From the NCBI GenBank assembly GCA_017883135.1, contig JADGOE010000025.1:1-39319 (forward strand): a stretch of DNA of 39,319 bases, written 5' to 3'. The DNA is from Acidimicrobiales bacterium. Its GTDB lineage: Bacteria > Actinomycetota > Acidimicrobiia > Acidimicrobiales > RAAP-2. Positions 22,320 to 34,650 of the stretch are shown piece by piece. The position numbers were made by a program, and so were the translations under genes. The stretch's first letter is position 1. Each line of letters opens with the position of its first letter. The notes under the pieces are model-generated. The model was not told where the DNA came from. It was given only the letters and a program-made list of their open reading frames with translations, and did not search any database.

Positions 22320-24575
22320 TCAGGAACTGGGTGTTCGCTCCGTGAGCCCGAGGGCATCGAGGATGAAGGCGTAGACGAAAGCCTCGTCCTTCCATGCGTC
22401 GTAGCGGCCCGAAGGGCCGCCGTGGCCGGCTCCGAGCTCGGTCTTCAGCAACACCTTGTTCTCTGGATTTGCGGCTCTCAGCCTGGCCACCCACTTGGCC
22501 GGTTCCCAGAATCCCACCCTGGGATCGGAGAGCCCGGCCGTCGCCAGAATGTCCGGGTAGCGCACCGGCTCCCCTGCCGAGTCGACCGAGCAGACATTGT
22601 CATAGGGCGAGTAGGACTTGATGACGGAGTAGATCTCCGGGTCCTCTACCGGGTTGCCCCACTCCTCCCACTCCAGCACGGTGAGGGGAAGGGTCTCATC
22701 CAAAATGGTGGTCAGGCAGTCCACGAAGGGAACCTCGGCCACGATGGCCCGGAACAGCTCCGGGGCCAGGTTGGCCACAGCCCCCATCAACAGGCCCCCC
22801 GCACTTCCGCCCCGGGCGACCAGCCGGTCAGGTGAGGTCCACCCGGCAGCCACCAGGCTCCGGGCGCATGCCACGAAGTCGGTGAACGTATTGGGCTTGG
22901 CCACGAACTTGCCGTCCTCGTACCACCGGCGGCCCATCTCCCCGCCGCCCCGGATGTGGGCGATGGCGAAGATGAACCCGCGATCGAGGAGGCTGAGGCG
23001 GAGCGACGAGAACGTCGGGTCGATCGATGCCTCGTAGGAGCCGTAGCCGTACAGCAGGCATGGTGCACCGGCAGAACTGCCGGCATCGGCAGATCCCCCG
23101 GACCCCTCGTGCCCTGCGCCGGGAGGGGGAACGAGATCGGGTCGGTAGACCAGGGAGATGGGGATGTCGGCGCCGTCCTCGGCCACCGCCCACCGCCGCT
23201 CGGTCCGATACCGGCTCGGATCGAAGCCACCCAGGACCGGTTGCCGCTTCCTCAACACGGCCTCGCCCGTCTGGAGGTCGAGGTCGTACACCGAGCGCGG
23301 GGTGGTCAGGGACGTGTACTCGTAGCGGAGCGTGGTGGAGTCGTACTCGGGGTTGGCCCCTCCCCACACGGTCGAGGGCGACTCCGGCTGGCTGATCGGC
23401 GTCGATGCACCGGTCGACGCGTCGATCACCCGTATCCGGGTCTCGCCCCCCTCCCGCTCGAAGACCACCAGGTGGTCGGCGAACGGGTCGACACCGTCCA
23501 GCCTGACTCCCGGTCGGGCGGGGATCACCTCACGCCACTGGGCCCGGCCCGGTGCCCGGTCGGGCGCTTCCATCAACCGGAAGTCTTCGGCCCCGTCGTT
23601 GGTGACGATGAGGAACCGGCTGTCGCGCCCGCCGTTCGGATCGCCACGGTCGTGGTCGACGCTGTACTCGATGCCCTGGCGCCGGGGCTCGATCACCATG
23701 AACTCGCCCTGGGGGTCGTCCGCCGGCAGCGCCCGGACCTCGGAGGTCACCTTGGAATCGAGGCCGCAGAGGATGAATTGATCGTCCTTGGTCCGTCCCA
23801 CGCCGAGATAGAAGCGGTCGTCGGCCTCCTCGTGGACCCGCACGTCGGTCGAGGGATCGGTCCCGACCCGGTGGCACCACAGTTGGTAGGGGCGCATGGC
23901 CTCGTCGACCCGGACGTAGAACACGGTGGCGTTGTCGCTGGCCCAGGCCACCCCGTAGGAGGTGTCCTCGAGCGACTCAGGCGACTCCGCCCCTGTCGAC
24001 AACTCGCGGAAGCGCATGGTGTAGCGCTCGCCACCGGAGGTGTCGGTCGAGTACACCAGCCACTCATGGTCGGGGCTGACGGCCAGGTTCCCCACGGCGA
24101 AGTAGCCATGCCCTCCGGCCAAGAGGTTCTCGTCGAGGATGACCTGCTCCCCTTCGCGGGCCTCCCCGTCCCCGCCTCCTGCCTTGCCTTCGGTTTCGAC
24201 GCCGTCCCCGCCCACTTCCCCGCCCCCGACGGCCGGTCGGCGACAGTGGATGCCGTAGTTGCTCCCTTCCTTCGTGCGTCCGTAGTAGTACCACGGGCCT
24301 TTGCGGACCGGCACCGACAGGTCGGTCTCCTCGATGCGAGCGACGATCTCATCGAACAGCGTGGTCTGGAGCCCCGTCGTACCCTCCATCACCGCCTCGG
24401 TGTAGGCGTTCTCGGCCGACAGGTGTGCGAGCACCGCCGGGTCGTCCTTGTCCCGAAGCCAGAACCAGTCGTCGACCCGAACATCGCCGTGTGCCTCGAG
24501 CTGGACCGGACGCCTCTCGGGGACCGGAGCCCGGGCGTCTCCGGAGGGGTGGTCGGAAGCGGAGCTGTGGGGCAT
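22320..24575 (-). CDS. Oligopeptidase B-like serine peptidase (family S9)
   Basis: This 751-residue prolyl-oligopeptidase-family enzyme cuts short peptides, classically after Arg/Lys. The N-terminal part has VRVDDWFWLRDKDDP and the beta-propeller. The C-terminal catalytic domain has HIRGGGEMGRRWYEDGK, Ser about residue 588 in GGSAGG, Asp in LSDPRVGFWEPAKW and His in GAGHGG. These match oligopeptidase B closely. A Gly/Glu-rich low-complexity insert (about residues 115-145, bases near 24145-24235) interrupts the propeller region. ATG 24575 was chosen because CATCCT lies 6 nt upstream; ATG 24596 would add 7 residues. Confidence 0.9.
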   Translation of the reverse strand: MPHSSASDHPSGDARAPVPERRPVQLEAHGDVRVDDWFWLRDKDDPAVLAHLSAENAYTEAVMEGTTGLQTTLFDEIVARIEETDLSVPVRKGPWYYYGRTKEGSNYGIHCRRPAVGGGEVGGDGVETEGKAGGGDGEAREGEQVILDENLLAGGHGYFAVGNLAVSPDHEWLVYSTDTSGGERYTMRFRELSTGAESPESLEDTSYGVAWASDNATVFYVRVDEAMRPYQLWCHRVGTDPSTDVRVHEEADDRFYLGVGRTKDDQFILCGLDSKVTSEVRALPADDPQGEFMVIEPRRQGIEYSVDHDRGDPNGGRDSRFLIVTNDGAEDFRLMEAPDRAPGRAQWREVIPARPGVRLDGVDPFADHLVVFEREGGETRIRVIDASTGASTPISQPESPSTVWGGANPEYDSTTLRYEYTSLTTPRSVYDLDLQTGEAVLRKRQPVLGGFDPSRYRTERRWAVAEDGADIPISLVYRPDLVPPPGAGHEGSGGSADAGSSAGAPCLLYGYGSYEASIDPTFSSLRLSLLDRGFIFAIAHIRGGGEMGRRWYEDGKFVAKPNTFTDFVACARSLVAAGWTSPDRLVARGGSAGGLLMGAVANLAPELFRAIVAEVPFVDCLTTILDETLPLTVLEWEEWGNPVEDPEIYSVIKSYSPYDNVCSVDSAGEPVRYPDILATAGLSDPRVGFWEPAKWVARLRAANPENKVLLKTELGAGHGGPSGRYDAWKDEAFVYAFILDALGLTERTPSS

Positions 24576-24639
24576 CCGACCAGGATGGCACGTCATTCTC
24601 TCGTTGCGATCGGTGCCCGCTCACTCGGGCGTGCATGGT

Positions 24640-24648
24640 TGTTACTAT
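24640..24648 (+). promoter_or_regulatory. Extended -10 promoter element of sufB
   Basis: TGTTACTAT, an extended -10 (TGn-TACTAT), 53 nt before ATG 24702. The region 24600-24663 is noticeably more AT-rich than the flanking sequence. No clear -35 is visible, as is common with extended -10 promoters. Confidence 0.5.
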
Positions 24649-24653
24649 CTGTA

Positions 24654-24663
24654 TAGGAGAAAT
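24654..24663 (+). promoter_or_regulatory. TAGGAGAAAT motif upstream of sufB (putative operator)
   Basis: TAGGAGAAAT lies at the expected transcription start of sufB. The same ten bases occur, in the same orientation relative to the gene, upstream of the second sufC (34676-34685). It is too far from the ATG to be the ribosome site; a separate AGGAG (24692-24696) serves that role. Confidence 0.4.
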
Positions 24664-24701
24664 CCCCCGCACCCCCACCCGGCGGCGACCTAGGAGCCCT
24701 C

Positions 24702-26102
24702 ATGACGACCACCGGCCTCGATCTCGGAAAGTACAAGCTTGGATGGTCCGACGAGGAGGACTACGTCTTCAAGCCCAAGAAGGGCCTGAACGAATCCATC
24801 GTCCGAGAGATGTCGGCGATGAAGAAGGAGCCCGAGTGGATGCGCGAGTTCCGGCTCCGTGCCCTGCAGCGCTTCGAGAAGCGCCCGATGGCCGAATGGT
24901 TCGCCGTGAACATGCCCGACCTCGACTTCGACGACATCTACTACTACATCAAGCCGACGTCAGGGCAAGTGGAGGATTGGAACGACCTCCCCGACGCCAT
25001 CAAGAACACCTACGAGAAGCTGGGTATCCCCGAGGCGGAGCGCAAGTACCTGGCCGGGGTCACCGCTCAGTATGAGTCCGAGGTCGTGTTCCACCGCAAT
25101 CGCGAGGACCTCGAGACCCTCGGCATCATCTTCTGCGACATGGACACAGCGGTGCGCGACTATCCCGACCTGGTGGCCAAGTACTTCGGGACGATCATCC
25201 CGCCCAATGACAACAAGTTCGCCGCCCTCAACTCTGCGGTCTGGTCCGGCGGGTCGTTCATCTACGTCCCGCCCAACGTGGTTGTCGACCAGCCACTGCA
25301 GGCCTACTTCCGGATCAATGCGGAGAATATGGGCCAGTTCGAGCGGACGCTGATCATCGCCGACGTGGGAGCCCAGGTCCACTACATCGAGGGCTGCTCT
25401 GCCCCGGTGTACACCACCGACTCCTTGCACTCCGCCGTGGTGGAGCTGGTGGCGCTGGAGGGTTCGCGGATCACCTACACCACCATCCAGAACTGGTCGA
25501 ACAACGTCTACAACCTGGTGACCAAGCGAGCCCGGGCCGAAGCCGAGGCCCATGTGGAGTGGATCGACGGCAACATCGGGTCGCGTCTCACCATGAAGTA
25601 CCCGTCGGTCTACCTGATGGGACCGAAGGCCTCCGGCGAGGTGCTCTCGGTGGCATATGCCGGAGCCGGCCAGCACCAGGATGCCGGCGCCAAGATGGTT
25701 CACGCTGCACCCGAGACCACCTCCACCATCATCTCCAAGTCGATCTCCAAGGATGCCGGCATCACCACTTACCGAGGCCTGGTCCATGTGGACGAAGGTG
25801 CCAAGCACGCCAAGAGCTTCGTCCGGTGCGACGCCCTGCTCCTTGACGACACTTCGGTATCGGAGACCAAGCCGTACATGGAAGTTGCCGAACGGGACGC
25901 CCGGATCGGCCACGAGGCGACGGTGTCCAAGGTGGGCGACGACCAGCTCTTCTACCTGATGAGCCGGGGGTTGTCCGAGACGCAGGCCATGGGGATGATC
26001 GTCAATGGGTTCATCGAGCCGATTACCCGCACCCTGCCCATGGAGTATGCCGTCGAGTGGAGCCGATTGATCGAGCTCCAGATGGAAGGCTCGATCGGCT
26101 GA
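24702..26102 (+). CDS. sufB: Fe-S cluster assembly scaffold SufB
   Basis: This 466-residue protein is the core scaffold of the SufBC2D complex, on which [4Fe-4S] clusters are built before transfer to apoproteins. Family landmarks are [56 protein letters not shown] (conserved Cys), the beta-helix repeats and [12 protein letters not shown] ... [20 protein letters not shown], where Cys and Glu are proposed sulfur and iron ligands. There is no intein. It has its own promoter and an AGGAG site 5 nt before the ATG. Unlike most actinobacteria, sufD does not follow directly. Confidence 0.96.
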
Positions 26103-26158
26103 ACTGGCCGACTGGCCGACTGGCCGACTGGCCGACTGGCCAACTGGCCAACTGGCTG
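26103..26158. repeat. Seven tandem 8-bp units directly after the sufB stop
   Basis: Four ACTGGCCG units, then two ACTGGCCA and one ACTGGCTG, without interruption, starting at the base after the TGA of sufB. The 8-bp period is not a multiple of three and lies outside coding sequence. The tract looks like a slippage-prone minisatellite in the 3' untranslated region. Confidence 0.92.
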
Positions 26159-26222
26159 GATCCACGGTCGCCGGCCAGCAGGAGATGCGACGGGTGCGCC
26201 GCCAGAAGGGCAGAATGTCCCC

Positions 26223-26567
26223 ATGCCGATGAGGGAAGGGTGCAAGCACTTTCAGAGCAGGACCTACGACTCAGGGGAGGTGGCCCGGTTCTGTGTCCTC
26301 GATCTGGCACCTGATGCGCCGTGGAAGTGCCCCGACGACTGCCCGTCCTACGCCCCCCGTCTGGTCGATGTCGGATGGAGCCATGGCTCGCTGATCGAGC
26401 CGAAGGTGGAGAGGATGCCCGACGTTCCCGACGCCGATGCGGCCGAGCTGCTCGACCAGGCTGAGGACATCGTCAATGCCGCCGGGCCCGAAATTCTGGC
26501 CGAGGTGCGCACCGAGGACGAGCGCAAGGGGCGTGCGGGGCGCCACTGGTGGAACCGCAAGCGCTGA
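26223..26567 (+). CDS. Small Cys-rich conserved-type protein in the SUF locus
   Basis: This 114-residue cytoplasmic protein has its conserved-looking part in the first 55 residues: Cys7-Lys-His9, FCVLDLAPDAPWKCPDDCP with Cys24, Cys36 and Cys40, then YAPRLVDVGWSHGSL. Four Cys plus a His could bind zinc or an Fe-S cluster. The C-terminal half is acidic (PDADAAELLDQAEDIV) and ends in a basic RKGRAGRHWWNRKR. I do not recognise a named family, though similar short actinobacterial proteins exist. It follows sufB on the same strand by 120 bp; a CAGAAT 6 nt before ATG 26223 may be a separate -10. A role with SUF is inferred from position only. Confidence 0.7.
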   Translation: MPMREGCKHFQSRTYDSGEVARFCVLDLAPDAPWKCPDDCPSYAPRLVDVGWSHGSLIEPKVERMPDVPDADAAELLDQAEDIVNAAGPEILAEVRTEDERKGRAGRHWWNRKR

Positions 26568-26570
26568 GCC

Positions 26571-26586
26571 TGCCGGCCCCCCGGCA
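26571..26586. terminator. Hairpin between convergent genes
   Basis: TGCCGG, loop CCCC, CCGGCA: a perfect 6-bp stem just after the small Cys-rich gene and before the 3' end of the minus-strand crotonase gene. A T-rich stretch (GTTTGTT) follows about 10 nt later on the plus strand. Confidence 0.5.
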
Positions 26587-26616
26587 CCGCGATCCGTTTG
26601 TTCGACCCCTCGAGGG

Positions 26617-27471
26617 CTACCGCCCGGTGAAGACGGCGGGGCGCTTCTCGATGAACGCGGTCATCGCCTCGGCGAGGTCATCGGAGGCCAGAGACCAAGC
26701 ATTCCACGTGGCCACATAGTCGAGCCCTTCGGCTACCGAGCGCCCCTCGCCTGCGTCGAGCACCGCTTTGGCACCCTGCACGGCCAGTGGCGAGTTGGCG
26801 GCGATCTCGGCGGCCATGGCACGGGCGTCGGCCAACACTGTCTCCGCGTCGGCGCTGACCTGGTTGACCAGACCGATCGACTCGGCGCGTGCGGCAGTGA
26901 TGTCCTTGCCGGTGAAGGCCAACTCGGCCAGATGCCCTTTGCCGATGATGTGGGGTAGGCGCTGCAGGCTGCCGACATCGGCGACGATGGCCACCTTGGC
27001 CTCCCGAACGGAGAAGATTGCATCCGTGCTGGCAAGCCGGATGTCGCACGCCGCCACCAGGTCCACGCCGCCGCCGATGCAGTAGCCGTGGATGGCGGCG
27101 ATGACCGGAACTGCGCATTCGGCTACCGAGGTGACCGACGCCTGCATGCGGACGATCTCCGCCCGGGCCGACCGGGCGCGAGAGGCCATGGAGTGCGGGG
27201 TACCGGCGCCGGAACTGGGCGCACCGGCCAGGCCCGACATCGCGACCAGGTCGAGCCCGACGCTGAAGTGGGGTCCTCGGGCGGCCAGCACCACCGCCCT
27301 GATCTCCGGGTCCGATCCGATGGCGGCCATGGCGACGGGGAGGTCTGCCCAGAATGGCGGACCCATCGCGTTGCGCTTCTCGGGGCGGTCGAGCCAGAGC
27401 GTGGCCACGTGCCCGTCGACCTCGATGGTGAGGACCTCGGAGGCGAAGGAGGCAAGGGTTGAGGTGGTCAT
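26617..27471 (-). CDS. Crotonase family, probable dienoyl-CoA isomerase
   Basis: This 284-residue enoyl-CoA hydratase/isomerase superfamily protein has oxyanion-hole segments GPHFSVGLDL and HGYCIGGGVDL. Acidic residues Asp137 (GGGVDL), Glu157 (SVREAKV) and Asp165 (VADVGSLQRLP) have the same 20- and 8-residue spacing as the catalytic set of mammalian delta3,5-delta2,4-dienoyl-CoA isomerase, and ADVGSLQRLP is that subfamily's signature. It would reposition double bonds during unsaturated fatty-acid oxidation. It lies antisense between sufB and sufD. ATG 27471 is 7 nt after TACGCT; an upstream open extension to 27609 is unconvincing. Confidence 0.85.
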   Translation of the reverse strand: MTTSTLASFASEVLTIEVDGHVATLWLDRPEKRNAMGPPFWADLPVAMAAIGSDPEIRAVVLAARGPHFSVGLDLVAMSGLAGAPSSGAGTPHSMASRARSARAEIVRMQASVTSVAECAVPVIAAIHGYCIGGGVDLVAACDIRLASTDAIFSVREAKVAIVADVGSLQRLPHIIGKGHLAELAFTGKDITAARAESIGLVNQVSADAETVLADARAMAAEIAANSPLAVQGAKAVLDAGEGRSVAEGLDYVATWNAWSLASDDLAEAMTAFIEKRPAVFTGR

Positions 27472-27478
27472 GGGCCAG

Positions 27479-27484
27479 AGCGTA
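27479..27484 (-). promoter_or_regulatory. -10 hexamer of the dienoyl-CoA isomerase-like gene
   Basis: TACGCT on the minus strand, 7 nt before ATG 27471. Confidence 0.45.
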
Positions 27485-27659
27485 GGCCGTAGGGAGGTAG
27501 GCCGCCGCGCCCGGATCATGCGCCGCAATGGTTGGCCGATGGGCTGCTTCCGCATCCCGAGGGCCGGACTCGTGGCACGAATTCGGACCATCTGGGCGGC
27601 TCGGGCCACACCAACTCAACCGGCAAGTCTCGCTCGGATGGTTGGGATCCGTGGCCAAG

Positions 27660-27670
27660 TAGCATGGGAG
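27660..27670 (+). promoter_or_regulatory. -10 hexamer and ribosome site of sufD
   Basis: TAGCAT (27660-27665) is a possible -10, immediately followed by GGGAG (27666-27670), 9 nt before GTG 27680. The GGGAG decides the start. The two elements are too close to serve one transcript, so the promoter call is tentative. Confidence 0.35.
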
Positions 27671-27679
27671 CCGAGGCTC

Positions 27680-29056
27680 GTGACCCGGGCCTCCTTGCGC
27701 GAAAGGCCTGCTGTCCTGTCGAACTTCACCCCTGAGTCCGCCGCCGCCCTCTCGGGACCGGCCTGGTTGCAGCAACGGAGATGCGCCGCGGCCGACGCCT
27801 TCTGGTCGTCACCCCTCCCCAGCGAGAAGGACGAGGTGTGGCGCTACAGCCGGATCGACCAACTCGATCTTGATCGCTTCCGCCCGGCCGGTTCGGTGTC
27901 GGTCACCGCGCCTGACGATCCCGGGCCGTCGCCCTCCGAGCGCATCCATACACTGGTGAGCAGCCTCGGCGCCCGTGCCGGCTTGGTGGTGACCATCAAC
28001 GGCGTGTTGGCCACCGTGGCCTCTTCGGTCCCCGACCACCTGGCGACGCTCGGCAGGGCAACCGAGCGGGCCGATGCGGAGACCTTTGTGGGATCGGTGG
28101 GATCCGATCCGCGGGACTTCTGGTTGTTGAACGACGCATTCGCGATCGACCCGGTGCTGGTGGACGTGCAACCGGGCGCAGTGGTCGAGGATCCCATCGT
28201 CATCGTGCACATGATCACCGGCGTTGGTGGGACTGCCATATTCCCTCGGACCGTGATCCGAACAGGCACGGGCTCCAGCGTCGGTGTCATCGAGATCGTG
28301 ATCGACGTCGACACCGGGCTGCTGGCGGACCTCCCCTCGGACGGCGTCCGGGCTCCCAACCGGCCACTCGAGCACCTGGTCGTACCGGCAACCGAGCTGC
28401 AGCTGGCCGAGGAAGCGGCCCTTGACTACGTGAGCGTGCAGTCGTTGGGCGCGGAGACGTGGCAGCTGGCCCACCAGGCGAGCTTCATCGGAGCCAATGC
28501 CACCCTCCGCAGCTTCGCAGTGGCCCTGGGCGGTAAGTACGCTCGCCTGCGCACGGACTCGGCGCTTGCCGGAGAGGGCGGAACCAGCATGTTGCGTGCG
28601 GCCTACATCGGACGTGACGAGCAGATGCTCGATTTCCGGACGCTGCAGGACCACCTGGCGCCACGGACCACCAGCGACCTGCTCTTCACGGGGGCGGTCG
28701 CGGACCGGTCGCACTCGGTCTACAGCGGCCTCATCCGAGTTCGGCGCGGAGCGGTCCGCTCCGACGCCATGCAGACCAATCACAACCTTGTGCTCGGTGA
28801 AGGGGCCCATGCCGATTCCGTGCCCAACCTCGACATCGAGGAGAACGACGTCAAGTGCAGCCACGGATCGACGGTCGGTCCGGTGGACGAGGACCAGCGG
28901 TACTACCTCGAGTCGCGGGGGATCGAACCGGAACGGGCCGAGCAGCTGATCGTGTCGGGATTCTTCGAGAGCATCGCCGACCAGGTGCCGATCGCCGGCA
29001 CCCGCTCGCTGATCGGCAGAGCCCTCGTCGACCGTGTGGGAGTGCACGGTGAGTGA
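27680..29056 (+). CDS. sufD: Fe-S cluster assembly protein SufD
   Basis: This 458-residue partner of SufB forms the SufB-SufD heterodimer and helps iron entry. Typical features are KDEVWRYSRIDQLDLDRF near the N-terminus, WQLAHQASFIGANA, LDFRTLQDHLAPRTTSDLL and the C-terminal VKCSHGSTVGPVDEDQRYYL with the conserved His, then SGFFESIADQVP. The frame stays open upstream to 27092, but that part overlaps the antisense crotonase gene and shows no SufD similarity. GTG 27680 has a GGGAG site at the right distance. Its end overlaps the Rieske gene start by 8 nt. Confidence 0.94.
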   Translation: MTRASLRERPAVLSNFTPESAAALSGPAWLQQRRCAAADAFWSSPLPSEKDEVWRYSRIDQLDLDRFRPAGSVSVTAPDDPGPSPSERIHTLVSSLGARAGLVVTINGVLATVASSVPDHLATLGRATERADAETFVGSVGSDPRDFWLLNDAFAIDPVLVDVQPGAVVEDPIVIVHMITGVGGTAIFPRTVIRTGTGSSVGVIEIVIDVDTGLLADLPSDGVRAPNRPLEHLVVPATELQLAEEAALDYVSVQSLGAETWQLAHQASFIGANATLRSFAVALGGKYARLRTDSALAGEGGTSMLRAAYIGRDEQMLDFRTLQDHLAPRTTSDLLFTGAVADRSHSVYSGLIRVRRGAVRSDAMQTNHNLVLGEGAHADSVPNLDIEENDVKCSHGSTVGPVDEDQRYYLESRGIEPERAEQLIVSGFFESIADQVPIAGTRSLIGRALVDRVGVHGE

Positions 29057-29396
29057 TCCGACTTCCACTGAGACGTACCCACCGAAGACGGCCCGCCTCT
29101 GCGGCCGAGCGGAGATGGCGCCGGGCGAGGCCAGGCGCTTCGACGTGGCCGGTCTGCGGGTCGCCCTGATCCGCATCGACGACGACTTCTACGCCATCGG
29201 GGACCGGTGCAGTCATGAGGACTATTCGTTGGCCGACGGCGAGGTGTGGACCGGCGAGTGCGAGATCGAATGTGCCAAGCACGGGTCGACCTTCGACCTG
29301 GTGACGGGCCAACCCTGCTCACTGCCGGCAACTCGTCCGGTGCCGGTCTACGAACTGATCTTCGACGGTGACGATGTCTCGGTGGTGGTCCCATGA
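29049..29396 (+). CDS. Rieske-type [2Fe-2S] ferredoxin of the SUF operon
   Basis: This 115-residue Rieske protein has cluster ligands Cys54-x-His56 (DRCSHED) and Cys75-x2-His78 (ECAKHGSTF), the biphenyl-dioxygenase ferredoxin type. Such a ferredoxin sits between sufD and sufC in many actinobacteria and may deliver electrons for cluster assembly, although its exact role is not established. GTG 29049 overlaps the sufD stop (GTGAGTGA) and has GGAG 6 nt upstream. The stop overlaps the sufC ATG (ATGA), so sufD, this gene and sufC form one translationally coupled operon. Confidence 0.93.
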   Translation: MSDPTSTETYPPKTARLCGRAEMAPGEARRFDVAGLRVALIRIDDDFYAIGDRCSHEDYSLADGEVWTGECEIECAKHGSTFDLVTGQPCSLPATRPVPVYELIFDGDDVSVVVP

Positions 29397-30139
29397 GCAC
29401 GGGAGAGCTGGTCATCGAAGGGCTCCGCGCCGGCATCCCCGGCCGGGAGATCCTGCGCGGGGTGACGCTGACCGTGCGCAGTGGTGAGGTGCATGCGGTG
29501 ATGGGCCCCAACGGCTCGGGCAAGAGCACGTTGGCCCATGTGCTTATGGGGCGGCCCGGCTACGAGGTCCTGGACGGGTCGGTAACCCTGGACGGCATCG
29601 ACCTGCTTTCGTTGCCGACCTGGCAGAGGGCTCGGGCCGGTCTGTTTCTGGCCATGCAGCATCCCGTCGAAGTGCCCGGCGTCACGCTGATCGAATCGTT
29701 GACTGCGGCCCGCCCCGGGGTCCCCGCCGAGGAGATCGGCGCCACCGACGCCGGCATCGGGGAGCGCCTTCACGAGGAGGCCCGCCGAATCGGGTTCGAC
29801 GAGCGATTCCTCGATCGTCCGCTCAACGTGGACCTGTCGGGCGGTGAGCGCAAGCGCAACGAGACCCTGCAGATGGGGGTGCTCCGCCCTCGGTTCGCCG
29901 TCCTCGACGAAATCGATTCTGGGCTGGACGTCGATGCCCTGGGCGCGGTGGGACGCCGGGTGGAGGAGGCAACCGCCGAATGGGGACTCGGAGTATTGGC
30001 CATCACCCACTTCAGGAGGCTGCTCGATGTCCTCCACCCTGATGTGGTGCACGTCCTTTCCGAAGGTCGAGTGGTGGCCACCGGGGGAAGCCAGCTGGCT
30101 GAGATCGTCGACCGGACCGGCTACGCCGCCTACGTCTGA
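29393..30139 (+). CDS. sufC: SUF ATPase SufC, first copy
   Basis: This 248-residue ABC-type ATPase of the SufBC2D complex has Walker A GPNGSGKST (38-46), ABC signature DLSGGERKRNE (147-157), Walker B FAVLDEIDSGLD and the switch His in ITHF. Compared with the second copy at 33859-34650 it is about 15 residues shorter, mainly in the helical region before the signature, and deviates from the usual SufC wording (ERHLNVGFSGGEKKRNE) there. Co-translation with sufD and the Rieske gene argues that it is functional. Confidence 0.93.
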   Translation: MSTGELVIEGLRAGIPGREILRGVTLTVRSGEVHAVMGPNGSGKSTLAHVLMGRPGYEVLDGSVTLDGIDLLSLPTWQRARAGLFLAMQHPVEVPGVTLIESLTAARPGVPAEEIGATDAGIGERLHEEARRIGFDERFLDRPLNVDLSGGERKRNETLQMGVLRPRFAVLDEIDSGLDVDALGAVGRRVEEATAEWGLGVLAITHFRRLLDVLHPDVVHVLSEGRVVATGGSQLAEIVDRTGYAAYV

Positions 30140-31974: not shown

Positions 31975-32472
31975 TCAGGCGGGTTCGCTCTCGTCGAGCC
32001 CTTGGGCCAAGGTGTTCCAACTGAGCGTGGCGCACTTGATGCGCACGGGGAACTTGACCACGCCCTGCAGCGCGGCGAGCTCGCCCAGAGCCTCGATGTC
32101 GATGGGCTCCGGCTCGCTGGCTTCGTCGTCCGGCGTGGATCCGTCGTCGGCCGACGGAAGGGTCGACCCATGGATCGACATCATTCCCTTGAAGGTCCTG
32201 ATCAGCTCCCGCACTTCCGTCACCGGCCTGCCCTTGACGGCGGCCGACATCAGCGACGCCGACGATTGGCTGATCGAACAGCCGCTGCCTGCAATCTTGA
32301 TGTCGGAGACCACCCCGCCGGTCACCTCGAGCGTCACCACGATCTCATCGCCACAAAGCGGATTGAACCCCTCGACCCGTTGCGCCGGTGGCGACTCCAG
32401 CTCACCGCGGTTGCGAGGGGAGCGGTAGTGATCGAGGATGATCTCGCGGTAGAGGTCCTCCAGCCCGGGCAT
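31975..32472 (-). CDS. sufU: Fe-S assembly sulfurtransferase SufU
   Basis: This 165-residue zinc-dependent sulfur acceptor takes persulfide from SufS. Zinc ligands Cys40 and Asp42 (PLCGDEIVV), Cys65 (GSGCSISQSSASL) and Cys147 (IKCATLSW) match the SufU pattern, and the N-terminus LEDLYREIILDHYRSPRNRG is typical. A low-complexity acidic insert (about residues 105-125, SADDGSTPDDEASEPEP) lies in the usual SufU insertion region. ATG 32472 has AAGGA 10 nt upstream. It lies 142 bp downstream of sufS on the same strand. Confidence 0.94.
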   Translation of the reverse strand: MPGLEDLYREIILDHYRSPRNRGELESPPAQRVEGFNPLCGDEIVVTLEVTGGVVSDIKIAGSGCSISQSSASLMSAAVKGRPVTEVRELIRTFKGMMSIHGSTLPSADDGSTPDDEASEPEPIDIEALGELAALQGVVKFPVRIKCATLSWNTLAQGLDESEPA

Positions 32473-32614
32473 CAGTGGGACGTCCTTTCGATCGGCCCGG
32501 CCCACAGCGGGACATCAGCATCCCGACCGGGGTCTTGGACGGTGGCCGCGTGCGACCGGCTGATGCTGTCGAATGGCGTGGAGCGGATCACCGGACCAGC
32601 GTACCGGCCTCCGA

Positions 32615-33871
32615 TCATCCGAAGAACGCCCCGGTGGCGTCGAGGGCCTCGATCAACGTGTCGACATCGGACTTGTCGTTGTACAGGGCGAACGAGGCGC
32701 GTGCAGTGGCATTGACCCCCAAGCGGCGCATGAGCGGCTTGGCACAGTGATGGCCGGCCCTCACGCATACCCCGTACTGGTCCAGGATCTGGGAGATGTC
32801 GTGTGGGTGCACGTCTCGGAACGCAAAGGACAACACCCCTCCGCGCTCGACGGCATCCTTGGGTCCGAAGATGTGGATGTCGTCGCCGAACCGCTCGTGG
32901 AGGGCGGCCATCGCATAAGTGGTCAACGCGATCTCATGGGCTCGGATCAGTTCCATGCCGATGCCCCGTAGATAGTCGACGGCTGCACCAAGGCCGATGG
33001 CCTCGGTGATCGGTGGGGTCCCGGCCTCGAAGCGCCAGGGGATGTCGTTGGGGGTGAACCCGTCCTTGCGGACGTCGAGGATCATCTCTCCACCACCGAG
33101 GAACGGAGGCAGGTCCGACAGCAGCTCGTCCCGTCCCCACAGCACGCCGATCCCCGTGGGGCCGACCATCTTGTGCGCACTGAATGCCAAGACGTCGACA
33201 CCCAGCGAGGTCACATCGGTGGGGAGATGGGGAACCGACTGCGCCCCATCGGCGACGACGATGGCACCGGCAGCGTGGGCCACGTCGGCAATATGGCGCA
33301 TAGGGTTCAGCGTGCCGAGCACGTTCGACATGCAGGTGACACCGACCAGCTTGGCTCCGTCCACCAACTGCTCGAGGTCGTCGAGGACGAGGTGACCATC
33401 ATCATCGATGGGTATCCAACGGAGGTTCAGCTCTTGTTCGGCGGCCAGCATCTGCCACGGGACGATATTTGCGTGGTGCTCCATTTCGGTGAGGACAACG
33501 GTGTCACCGGCGTGCAAATGAGTGCTTCCCCAGGTGCGGGCCACCAGATTGAGGCACTCGGTGGCGTTCTTGGCGAAGACGATCTCCCGCGAAGGATTGG
33601 GCGCACCGACGAATCGGCCGACGTTGATGCGGGCTGCCTCGAAGCGTCGGGTGGCCTCTTCGGCGATGCCGTACACGCCCCGGTGGACATTGGCATGGGT
33701 GGTCTCGTCGTACTCGCGCATGGCATCGAGCACCTGGACCGGGCGTTGGGACGACGCCGCCGAGTCGAGATAGGTGATGGGGTGCCCGTTGACCTCGAGG
33801 GACAACAGCGGGAAGTCCTTGCGAAGGGTGGCGACATCTAGTTCGGCTCCGGTGCCGTTCAGTTCCGCCAT
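32615..33871 (-). CDS. sufS: Cysteine desulfurase SufS
   Basis: This 418-residue PLP enzyme releases sulfur from cysteine as a persulfide on Cys376 (VRAGHHCAKPLM). PLP-binding Lys234 is in FSAHKMVGPTG. YLDSAASSQRPVQVLDAM near the N-terminus and EMEHHANIVPWQ are typical group II features. The start ATG 33871 lies inside the end of the second sufC (13-nt overlap), so the two are translationally coupled. A longer open frame upstream to 35563 is an antisense shadow of sufC and the debranching enzyme. Confidence 0.96.
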   Translation of the reverse strand: MAELNGTGAELDVATLRKDFPLLSLEVNGHPITYLDSAASSQRPVQVLDAMREYDETTHANVHRGVYGIAEEATRRFEAARINVGRFVGAPNPSREIVFAKNATECLNLVARTWGSTHLHAGDTVVLTEMEHHANIVPWQMLAAEQELNLRWIPIDDDGHLVLDDLEQLVDGAKLVGVTCMSNVLGTLNPMRHIADVAHAAGAIVVADGAQSVPHLPTDVTSLGVDVLAFSAHKMVGPTGIGVLWGRDELLSDLPPFLGGGEMILDVRKDGFTPNDIPWRFEAGTPPITEAIGLGAAVDYLRGIGMELIRAHEIALTTYAMAALHERFGDDIHIFGPKDAVERGGVLSFAFRDVHPHDISQILDQYGVCVRAGHHCAKPLMRRLGVNATARASFALYNDKSDVDTLIEALDATGAFFG

Positions 33872-34650
33872 GCGTCGTACCCTTCGGTCTCCAGCGCGTT
33901 GGCCAGCTCCGGGCCACCCTCGGCGACGATAACCCCGCCGACGAGCAGGTGCACCCGATCGGCGGCGAGCTCGTCCAGCATGCGCTGATAGTGGGTGATC
34001 ACCAGGACCCCTAATTCGGGCCGGGACTCGCGAACGGTGTGAACGCCGCGGGCCACGGTGCGGAGGGCGTCGACATCGAGCCCCGAATCGGTCTCGTCCA
34101 GCACGGCCAGCTCGGGCTCCAAGATGGCCATCTGCAGGATTTCGTTTCGCTTCTTCTCCCCGCCCGAGAACCCCGCGTTGAGGTGACGTTCCCCGAAGGA
34201 CGGGTCCATGCCCAGCTTCTCCATCCACTCCATCATCATCAGCCGGACTTCGAGCACGGACATGTCGATGCCCCGACGGGCGGAAAGCGCCTGGCGGAGG
34301 AATTGGATGACCGGCACGCCCCCAATGGACTCGGGCTCCTGGAAAGCGAGGAACATCCCGGCCTTGCCGCGGACATCGGGCGGCCACGCGGTGATGTCCT
34401 CGCCCTGGAAGCGGATGGTCCCCGAGGTGACCCGGTAGGCGGGGTTGCCGAGGAGCACGTTGGCCAACGTGGACTTCCCCGATCCGTTCGGCCCCATCAG
34501 GGCGTGTACCTGACCCGCCTCGACGGTGAGGTCGACGCCGCGCAGTATGGGCTTCCCGTCCACCGACACGTGCAGGCCTTCGATCTGGAGGAGTGGGGGA
34601 GCGGCGGCCCCGACGGTCTCCTCGGCCAGGTCGGTGTGGTCGTGTGGCAC
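33859..34650 (-). CDS. sufC: SUF ATPase SufC, second copy
   Basis: This 263-residue SufC ATPase is closer to the canonical family than the first copy: Walker A LMGPNGSGKST (53-61), MFLAFQEPESIGGVPV, ERHLNAGFSGGEKKRNE (signature 161-170) and LAVLDETDSGLDVDALR, then VITHYQRML with the switch His. The first about 20 residues are an acidic extension. GTG 34650 is 6 nt after a TAGGAT -10 and also has AGGA in range. It is the first gene of a sufC-sufS-sufU unit facing the sufD-Rieske-sufC operon. Confidence 0.94.
   Translation of the reverse strand: MPHDHTDLAEETVGAAAPPLLQIEGLHVSVDGKPILRGVDLTVEAGQVHALMGPNGSGKSTLANVLLGNPAYRVTSGTIRFQGEDITAWPPDVRGKAGMFLAFQEPESIGGVPVIQFLRQALSARRGIDMSVLEVRLMMMEWMEKLGMDPSFGERHLNAGFSGGEKKRNEILQMAILEPELAVLDETDSGLDVDALRTVARGVHTVRESRPELGVLVITHYQRMLDELAADRVHLLVGGVIVAEGGPELANALETEGYDAWRN

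Follow-up and report, generated by a model that had tools for sequence, protein, structure and literature searches.

CXP is a real, undescribed and strongly conserved family of four-cysteine (Cys4) proteins, described here from the suf region of an Acidimicrobiales contig (the window, that is, the whole stretch of 39,319 nucleotides that was analysed). Its relatives in sister orders of the class Acidimicrobiia sit elsewhere, which makes it probably a metal-binding protein of general function rather than a constant component of the SUF machine. The reading we prefer, tentatively and with a little less than even confidence, is that of a class-restricted metal-binding housekeeping protein with a Cys4 site and a basic tail, which would act independently of SUF and has its home in suf in one order only.

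The CXP gene and its surroundings

The reading frame of CXP (Table 1) is a real gene. Both the GC content per codon position (0.69/0.48/0.83) and the identity among the long homologues in the order (48-82%) show that it is coding. As the first-pass annotation had it, the frame lies on the same strand as the SUF genes. Its direct upstream neighbour is sufB (120 bp gap). The same annotation placed the gene between sufB and sufD. This holds in so far as sufB is upstream and sufD downstream, but a hydratase gene on the minus strand, convergent with CXP, intervenes, so that CXP and sufD are not direct neighbours here. A scan of positions 24500-27800 detected neither promoter nor terminator.

The tandem repeat of the 8-bp unit ACTGGCCG (6.8 copies) begins directly at the end of the sufB stop codon; two consecutive units occur nowhere else in the window (at most one mismatch allowed). 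The window also carries two sufC copies that are 48% identical, one with sufD and the other with sufS-sufU. Such a pair recurs in many Acidimicrobiales and in some suf regions of other orders, and the copies perhaps represent two different SufC subunits.

Table 1. Features of the window, with the representative loci of CXP2 and c1.
Feature	Position	Strand	Remarks
sufB	24702..26102	+	466 aa; TIGR01980 696.6 bits (cut-off 346.4)
Tandem repeat, ACTGGCCG x 6.8	26103..26156	+	covers 54 bp of the 120-bp sufB-CXP gap
CXP	26223..26567	+	ATG start, 114 aa; Cys4 module at the N terminus (residues 1-60), then a predicted helix (70-105) and a tail rich in Arg and Trp
Cys4 stretch of CXP	26241..26342	+	C7-x16-C24-x11-C36-P-x-x-C40
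Enoyl-CoA hydratase family gene	26617 to about 27440	-	PRK06142 354.2 bits (cut-off 308); start approximate, match from residue 58 of ORF 26617-27609
sufD	about 27701-29056	+	SUFBD_core (Pfam) E=1.6e-64; TIGR01981 218.2 bits, just below cut-off 222; start approximate
Rieske-type ferredoxin gene of suf operon	29034..29396	+	PF00355 4.8e-16
sufC, first copy	29393..30139	+	TIGR01978 258.8 bits (cut-off 212.8)
sufU	31975..32505	-	TIGR01994 141.4 bits (cut-off 92.5)
sufS	32615..33871	-	TIGR01979 535.6 bits (cut-off 475.1)
sufC, second copy	33868..34590	-	TIGR01978 304.2 bits (cut-off 212.8)
CXP2	L061:7479-7664		19 other loci (L051-L070), Acidimicrobiales; near larE and Nudix genes
c1	L160:10101-10658		about 186 aa; near rdgB and CXP in other orders

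A conserved cysteine module and a basic tail

Cys7, His9, Cys24, Cys36 and Cys40, which the first-pass annotation had pointed out as a compact pattern suited to metal or Fe-S binding, are all found at these positions. The four cysteines are, as expected of a metal-binding Cys4 protein, retained in 167 of 167 distinct homologues of CXP and its short paralogue CXP2, so the pattern is no chance string. This set comprises 98 SUF-linked and 26 rph-linked sequences, 7 second copies, 6 members of the deep family f96, 21 short paralogues and 9 others that have no recognised neighbour within the available stretch. His9, on the other hand, is kept in only 141 of 167 (Asn, Phe, Tyr, Trp and others replace it elsewhere) and is therefore not a required ligand. 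Across 33 diverse CXP sequences (alignment A1), 16 columns are fully invariant.

Because of the conserved cysteines, metal binding by CXP is likely, as judged from sequence. Cys7, Cys24, Cys36 and Cys40 of the N-terminal module may together hold one metal centre. Zinc and an Fe-S cluster are indistinguishable by sequence; we lean towards a putative structural zinc, with an Fe-S cluster as the second candidate.

The AlphaFold model (mean pLDDT 75.5, pTM 0.33) contains a hairpin (residues 10-14/20-24) and a long helix (70-105). Confidence is poor in the Cys module, where the beta hairpin is the only structure predicted, and the first 60 residues modelled alone reach a pLDDT of 50. The charged tail noticed earlier is borne out by the homologues: in every full-length group the final 25 positions have a basic character (median 7-11 Lys+Arg). 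In rph-linked forms the tail is rich in Lys and Arg, in Acidimicrobiales mostly in Arg and Trp, and together with the helix it may bind a polyanionic partner, for instance RNA, the ribosome or the surface of a membrane. A Trp/Phe pair or near-pair is present in the tail of 81/98 SUF-linked, 7/7 second-copy and 0/26 rph-linked sequences; since 3/6 members of f96 and 5/9 sequences without recognised neighbour have one too, it is no clean mark of the SUF-linked form.

Searches for known families returned little. Against Pfam, CXP gave nothing at E-values up to 1, and a scan of the 33 members of A1 (E up to 5) yielded 0.082 at best. The best NCBIfam match reached 13.8 bits, where the cut-off is 459, and the best PHROGs match (E 0.025) concerned the helix part only. 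Profile searches of the PDB gave best E-values of 0.63 and 0.87, Foldseek with the full model against the PDB reached 0.38, and the matches of the VIA structure comparison were confined to the long helix (best Z 4.2). No relatives turned up in plasmids, phages or viral contigs, and no description of such a gene was present among the literature matches listed. Related surveys concern the signature proteins of Acidimicrobiia (26 proteins, with A. ferrooxidans as starting genome; PMC5962788, in part) and the suf loci of acidophiles, with hypothetical genes marked in its Fig. 1 (PMC9628965, in part).

CXP2 is a second, short family, in most members consisting of the Cys4 module alone (17 of 20 have 55-70 aa, the rest 73-113 aa). 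It shares the four Cys, P33, P37, R46 and W52 with CXP in 21 of 21 sequences, and hhalign relates the two alignments (A1 vs A2) with a probability of 99%; unlike CXP, most members are without the long helix-and-tail part. In a Pfam scan of 20 members (E up to 5) three matched DUF1163 (best 0.0022), and no Pfam family was assigned. At least one of larE, Nudix, chlorite-dismutase-like (by eye), GNAT-like (by eye) or groEL genes is nearby in 20/20 loci. The larE gene (identified from one member, TIGR00268 288.8 bits vs 150) accompanies CXP2 in 17 of 20 stretches but is encoded on the other strand every time, which does not point to an operon. A LarE of Thermotoga needs a [4Fe-4S] cluster (PMC9283937, in part), and a sulfur theme linking CXP2 and larE is possible.

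Gene neighbourhood inside and outside Acidimicrobiales

As far as sampled, CXP is confined to the class Acidimicrobiia. In other classes of the phylum no match was found in 358 genomes (396 minus 38 of the class) among the candidates scored, at most 11 first-look candidates per genome; the CXP2 profile likewise gave no match there. The best 80 loci of a genome-contig scan carry titles of Acidimicrobiia-type or of general actinobacterial or bacterial MAGs.

SufB was matched in 142 of 148 class genomes. The co-occurrence with SUF that the first-pass annotation proposed to examine is complete in one direction (SufB in 76/76 genomes with CXP or CXP2), but SufB is also present in 66/72 genomes with neither. 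The six genomes without SufB (G509, 94% complete, and five of 71-84%) are also without CXP. As all genomes with CXP or CXP2 have SufB and all SufB-less genomes are without CXP, co-occurrence is no argument against SUF. SufU was matched in 112/148 genomes; small f97 genomes, which are also without CXP, make up 18/20 of the listed SufU-less genomes and many of the CXP-less ones.

Within the order, CXP matches at E <= 0.001 were obtained in 60 of 61 genomes (our own and 60 relatives). Matches better than 1e-16 are found in 57 of the 61, own included, with one (G030) covering residues 39-110 only; G015, G032 and G060 have weak matches of the short-paralogue kind only, and G052 has none. Of 96 order loci (L037-L050, L080-L159, L201 and L209, some genomes being counted twice), 89 have sufB upstream in the same orientation and 85 have sufD downstream, and contig ends account for part of the remainder. 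Gaps range from -1 to 121 bp in 64 of the 89 and from -34 to 179 bp in 28 of the 85, distances that fit a common transcript; CXP of Acidimicrobiales is presumably co-transcribed with sufB and sufD. The commonest longer gap between CXP and sufD (about 1 kb) contains the hydratase gene, and the position between sufB and sufD persists despite insertions of various sizes. Loci L031-L036 have both sufB and sufD (6/6). Two order loci outside the 96, L200 and L202 (the latter a 4.7 kb contig), gave no sufB or sufD match.

In the class sample, a long CXP match is present in 36 of 37 order genomes (hand count, own included). In 30 of these 36 the contig that carries CXP also has a SufB match, no more than about 5 kb away (that of G172 being divergent). 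In G413, G215, G277 and G555 it is on another contig, with CXP within 2 kb of a contig end, and in G055 and G435 the 8-9 kb upstream of CXP contain no SufB and CXP faces sufU-sufS. At the level of loci, CXP beside sufU-sufS with no sufB nearby is seen in L046 and L200 (two genomes). In G139, an order genome of 2,158,157 bp, sufB is intact and full-length CXP was not found; transposase-like ORFs (by eye) follow sufB, and the 7 kb read contain no sufD match.

In some genomes SufB matches come in ordered pieces with long spacers (L050, L108, L122, L124, L135, L137, L146 and L155), and in G246, G104 and G548 the split matches lie within one open frame of 889-1032 aa, which is suggestive of candidate inteins in sufB.

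The constancy of this neighbourhood, which survives insertions and extends to CXP facing sufU-sufS in L046 and L200 though sufB is absent nearby, together with the invariant Cys4 module, fits another reading: CXP would be a lineage-specific SUF factor, recruited in Acidimicrobiales as cluster carrier, SufBCD partner or redox-sensitive brake, with a transient Fe-S cluster in the Cys4 site. Persistence beside suf is by itself weak evidence, however, because a peptidase and a LytR-type gene, with no evident SUF role, also persist there in many of 80 loci examined.

The other orders of the class argue against such a factor. CXP was matched in 39 of their 111 genomes, and 43 loci from 36 of the 39 were examined (leaving out G462, G518, G521 and one of two copies in G542; some stretches end at contig ends). 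None of the 43 has sufB, sufD, sufS or sufU near CXP, yet every Cys is retained. Instead, rph, rdgB or c1 precedes CXP in the same orientation in 26, separated from it by as little as tens of bases and as much as about 5 kb. Seven second copies share no common neighbourhood, except for one pair in matching positions. Moreover, the SufB stretches of ten other-order genomes with CXP elsewhere contain no CXP match over 40 bits (10/10). Here sufB and sufD are closed up in seven (G477, G495, G504, G465, G489, G076 and G542; gap -9 to 177 bp); in G451 they are 1.9 kb apart, in G257 the SUF type is a different one with sufC between them, and in G449 no sufD was seen. Among eight CXP-less genomes, sufB and sufD are separated by 95 bp to 7.3 kb in seven, and in one no sufD was seen; CXP is found at none of these places. 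A second, divergent SUF type of the order sufB-sufC-sufD was observed in L226, L228 and L229 (SufB 44-46% identical to that of the window).

Consequently, the SUF accessory factor suggested by the first-pass annotation is not supported as formulated, given the 0/43 other-order loci, the 10/10 SufB stretches without CXP and the SufB in 66/72 genomes without CXP or CXP2. The adjacency of homologues to sufB/sufD on which it hinged is real in Acidimicrobiales and absent in the other orders; the cysteines, whose loss was to accompany that of the SUF neighbourhood if the idea were wrong, are retained. We consider a lineage-specific SUF factor in the sense given above somewhat unlikely.

Adjacency of sufB and sufD without CXP is the wider bacterial state, so CXP would have come into suf in the Acidimicrobiales line. 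A single move is not shown: in a quick tree (72 of 164 inner branches open) SUF-linked rows fall into more than one group, and the starred branches require this label to have changed three times or more.

As for c1, this gene is found in 95/148 class genomes, both with and without CXP, and was therefore rejected as a specific CXP partner; the one member scanned had no Pfam or NCBIfam match. None of 12 Acidimicrobiales c1 stretches contains an rph, rdgB or CXP match, which does not tell which home of CXP is older.

Possible roles of CXP

Like the SUF accessory proteins SufT/DUF59, SufA, SufE and SufU, CXP is small and, in one order, encoded in the suf operon. It differs in that neither Pfam nor NCBIfam matches link it to these proteins, in being found, within the sampling, only in Acidimicrobiia, and in having orthologues outside suf in the other orders. 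With suf being one of several homes, the role of CXP should not depend on the adjacent SUF genes. The SUF-independent, class-restricted housekeeping protein that we prefer is favoured by the Cys4 site being kept across SUF-linked, rph-linked, unlinked and short forms, and by G139 with its intact sufB and no full-length CXP found; against it counts that an entire order has kept CXP next to suf, and that in L046 and L200 it stays with sufU-sufS. An intermediate scenario, in which the suf operon of Acidimicrobiales gained an order-specific Cys4 protein that is older than its suf position, was recruited as cluster carrier or supply sensor and changed its tail from Lys-rich to Arg/Trp-rich, appears unlikely to us.

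With the WhiB-like (Wbl) proteins (PF02467) CXP has in common that it is small and actinobacterial, carries four Cys and a Gly-Trp motif, and ends in a basic tail. It might thus be argued that CXP is a WhiB-type Fe-S regulator, placed in suf to sense cluster supply and using the tail to bind nucleic acid: the elements come in the same order (four Cys, then GW...G with G51, W52 and G55, then the basic tail), and the genome makes use of this type of regulator, as its five WhiB matches show. The Cys spacing is nevertheless different (C-xn-C-x2-C-x5-C in WhiB; x16, x11, x3 in CXP), and a beta hairpin is all that is predicted in the Cys module. When compared by hhalign with 23 WhiB rows picked by the former pattern, A1 gave a probability of 0.4% over one aligned column and A2 3.5% over 11 columns, against 99% for the positive control (A1 vs A2). 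The Whib Pfam profile is also absent from the matches of all 33 CXP members (E up to 5). Given the different spacing and the lack of profile similarity we reject WhiB membership, and hold a regulator of this type to be quite improbable. Finally, a passenger role, with CXP as a small, dispensable product of a well-expressed operon whose function it does not share, would agree with its varying position between orders and the many class members without it, but is highly improbable in view of the 16 invariant columns and the presence in 36/37 order genomes, which argue for a function of its own.

Overall, the analysis would add an undescribed Cys4 family that is close to universal in the sampled Acidimicrobiales. 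The same orthologue occurring in suf, near rph-rdgB, elsewhere, or not at all, constitutes a natural experiment, through which the question whether a conserved suf neighbour is a SUF factor becomes directly testable. It also serves as a caution that gene order conserved inside one order can mislead the assignment of function.
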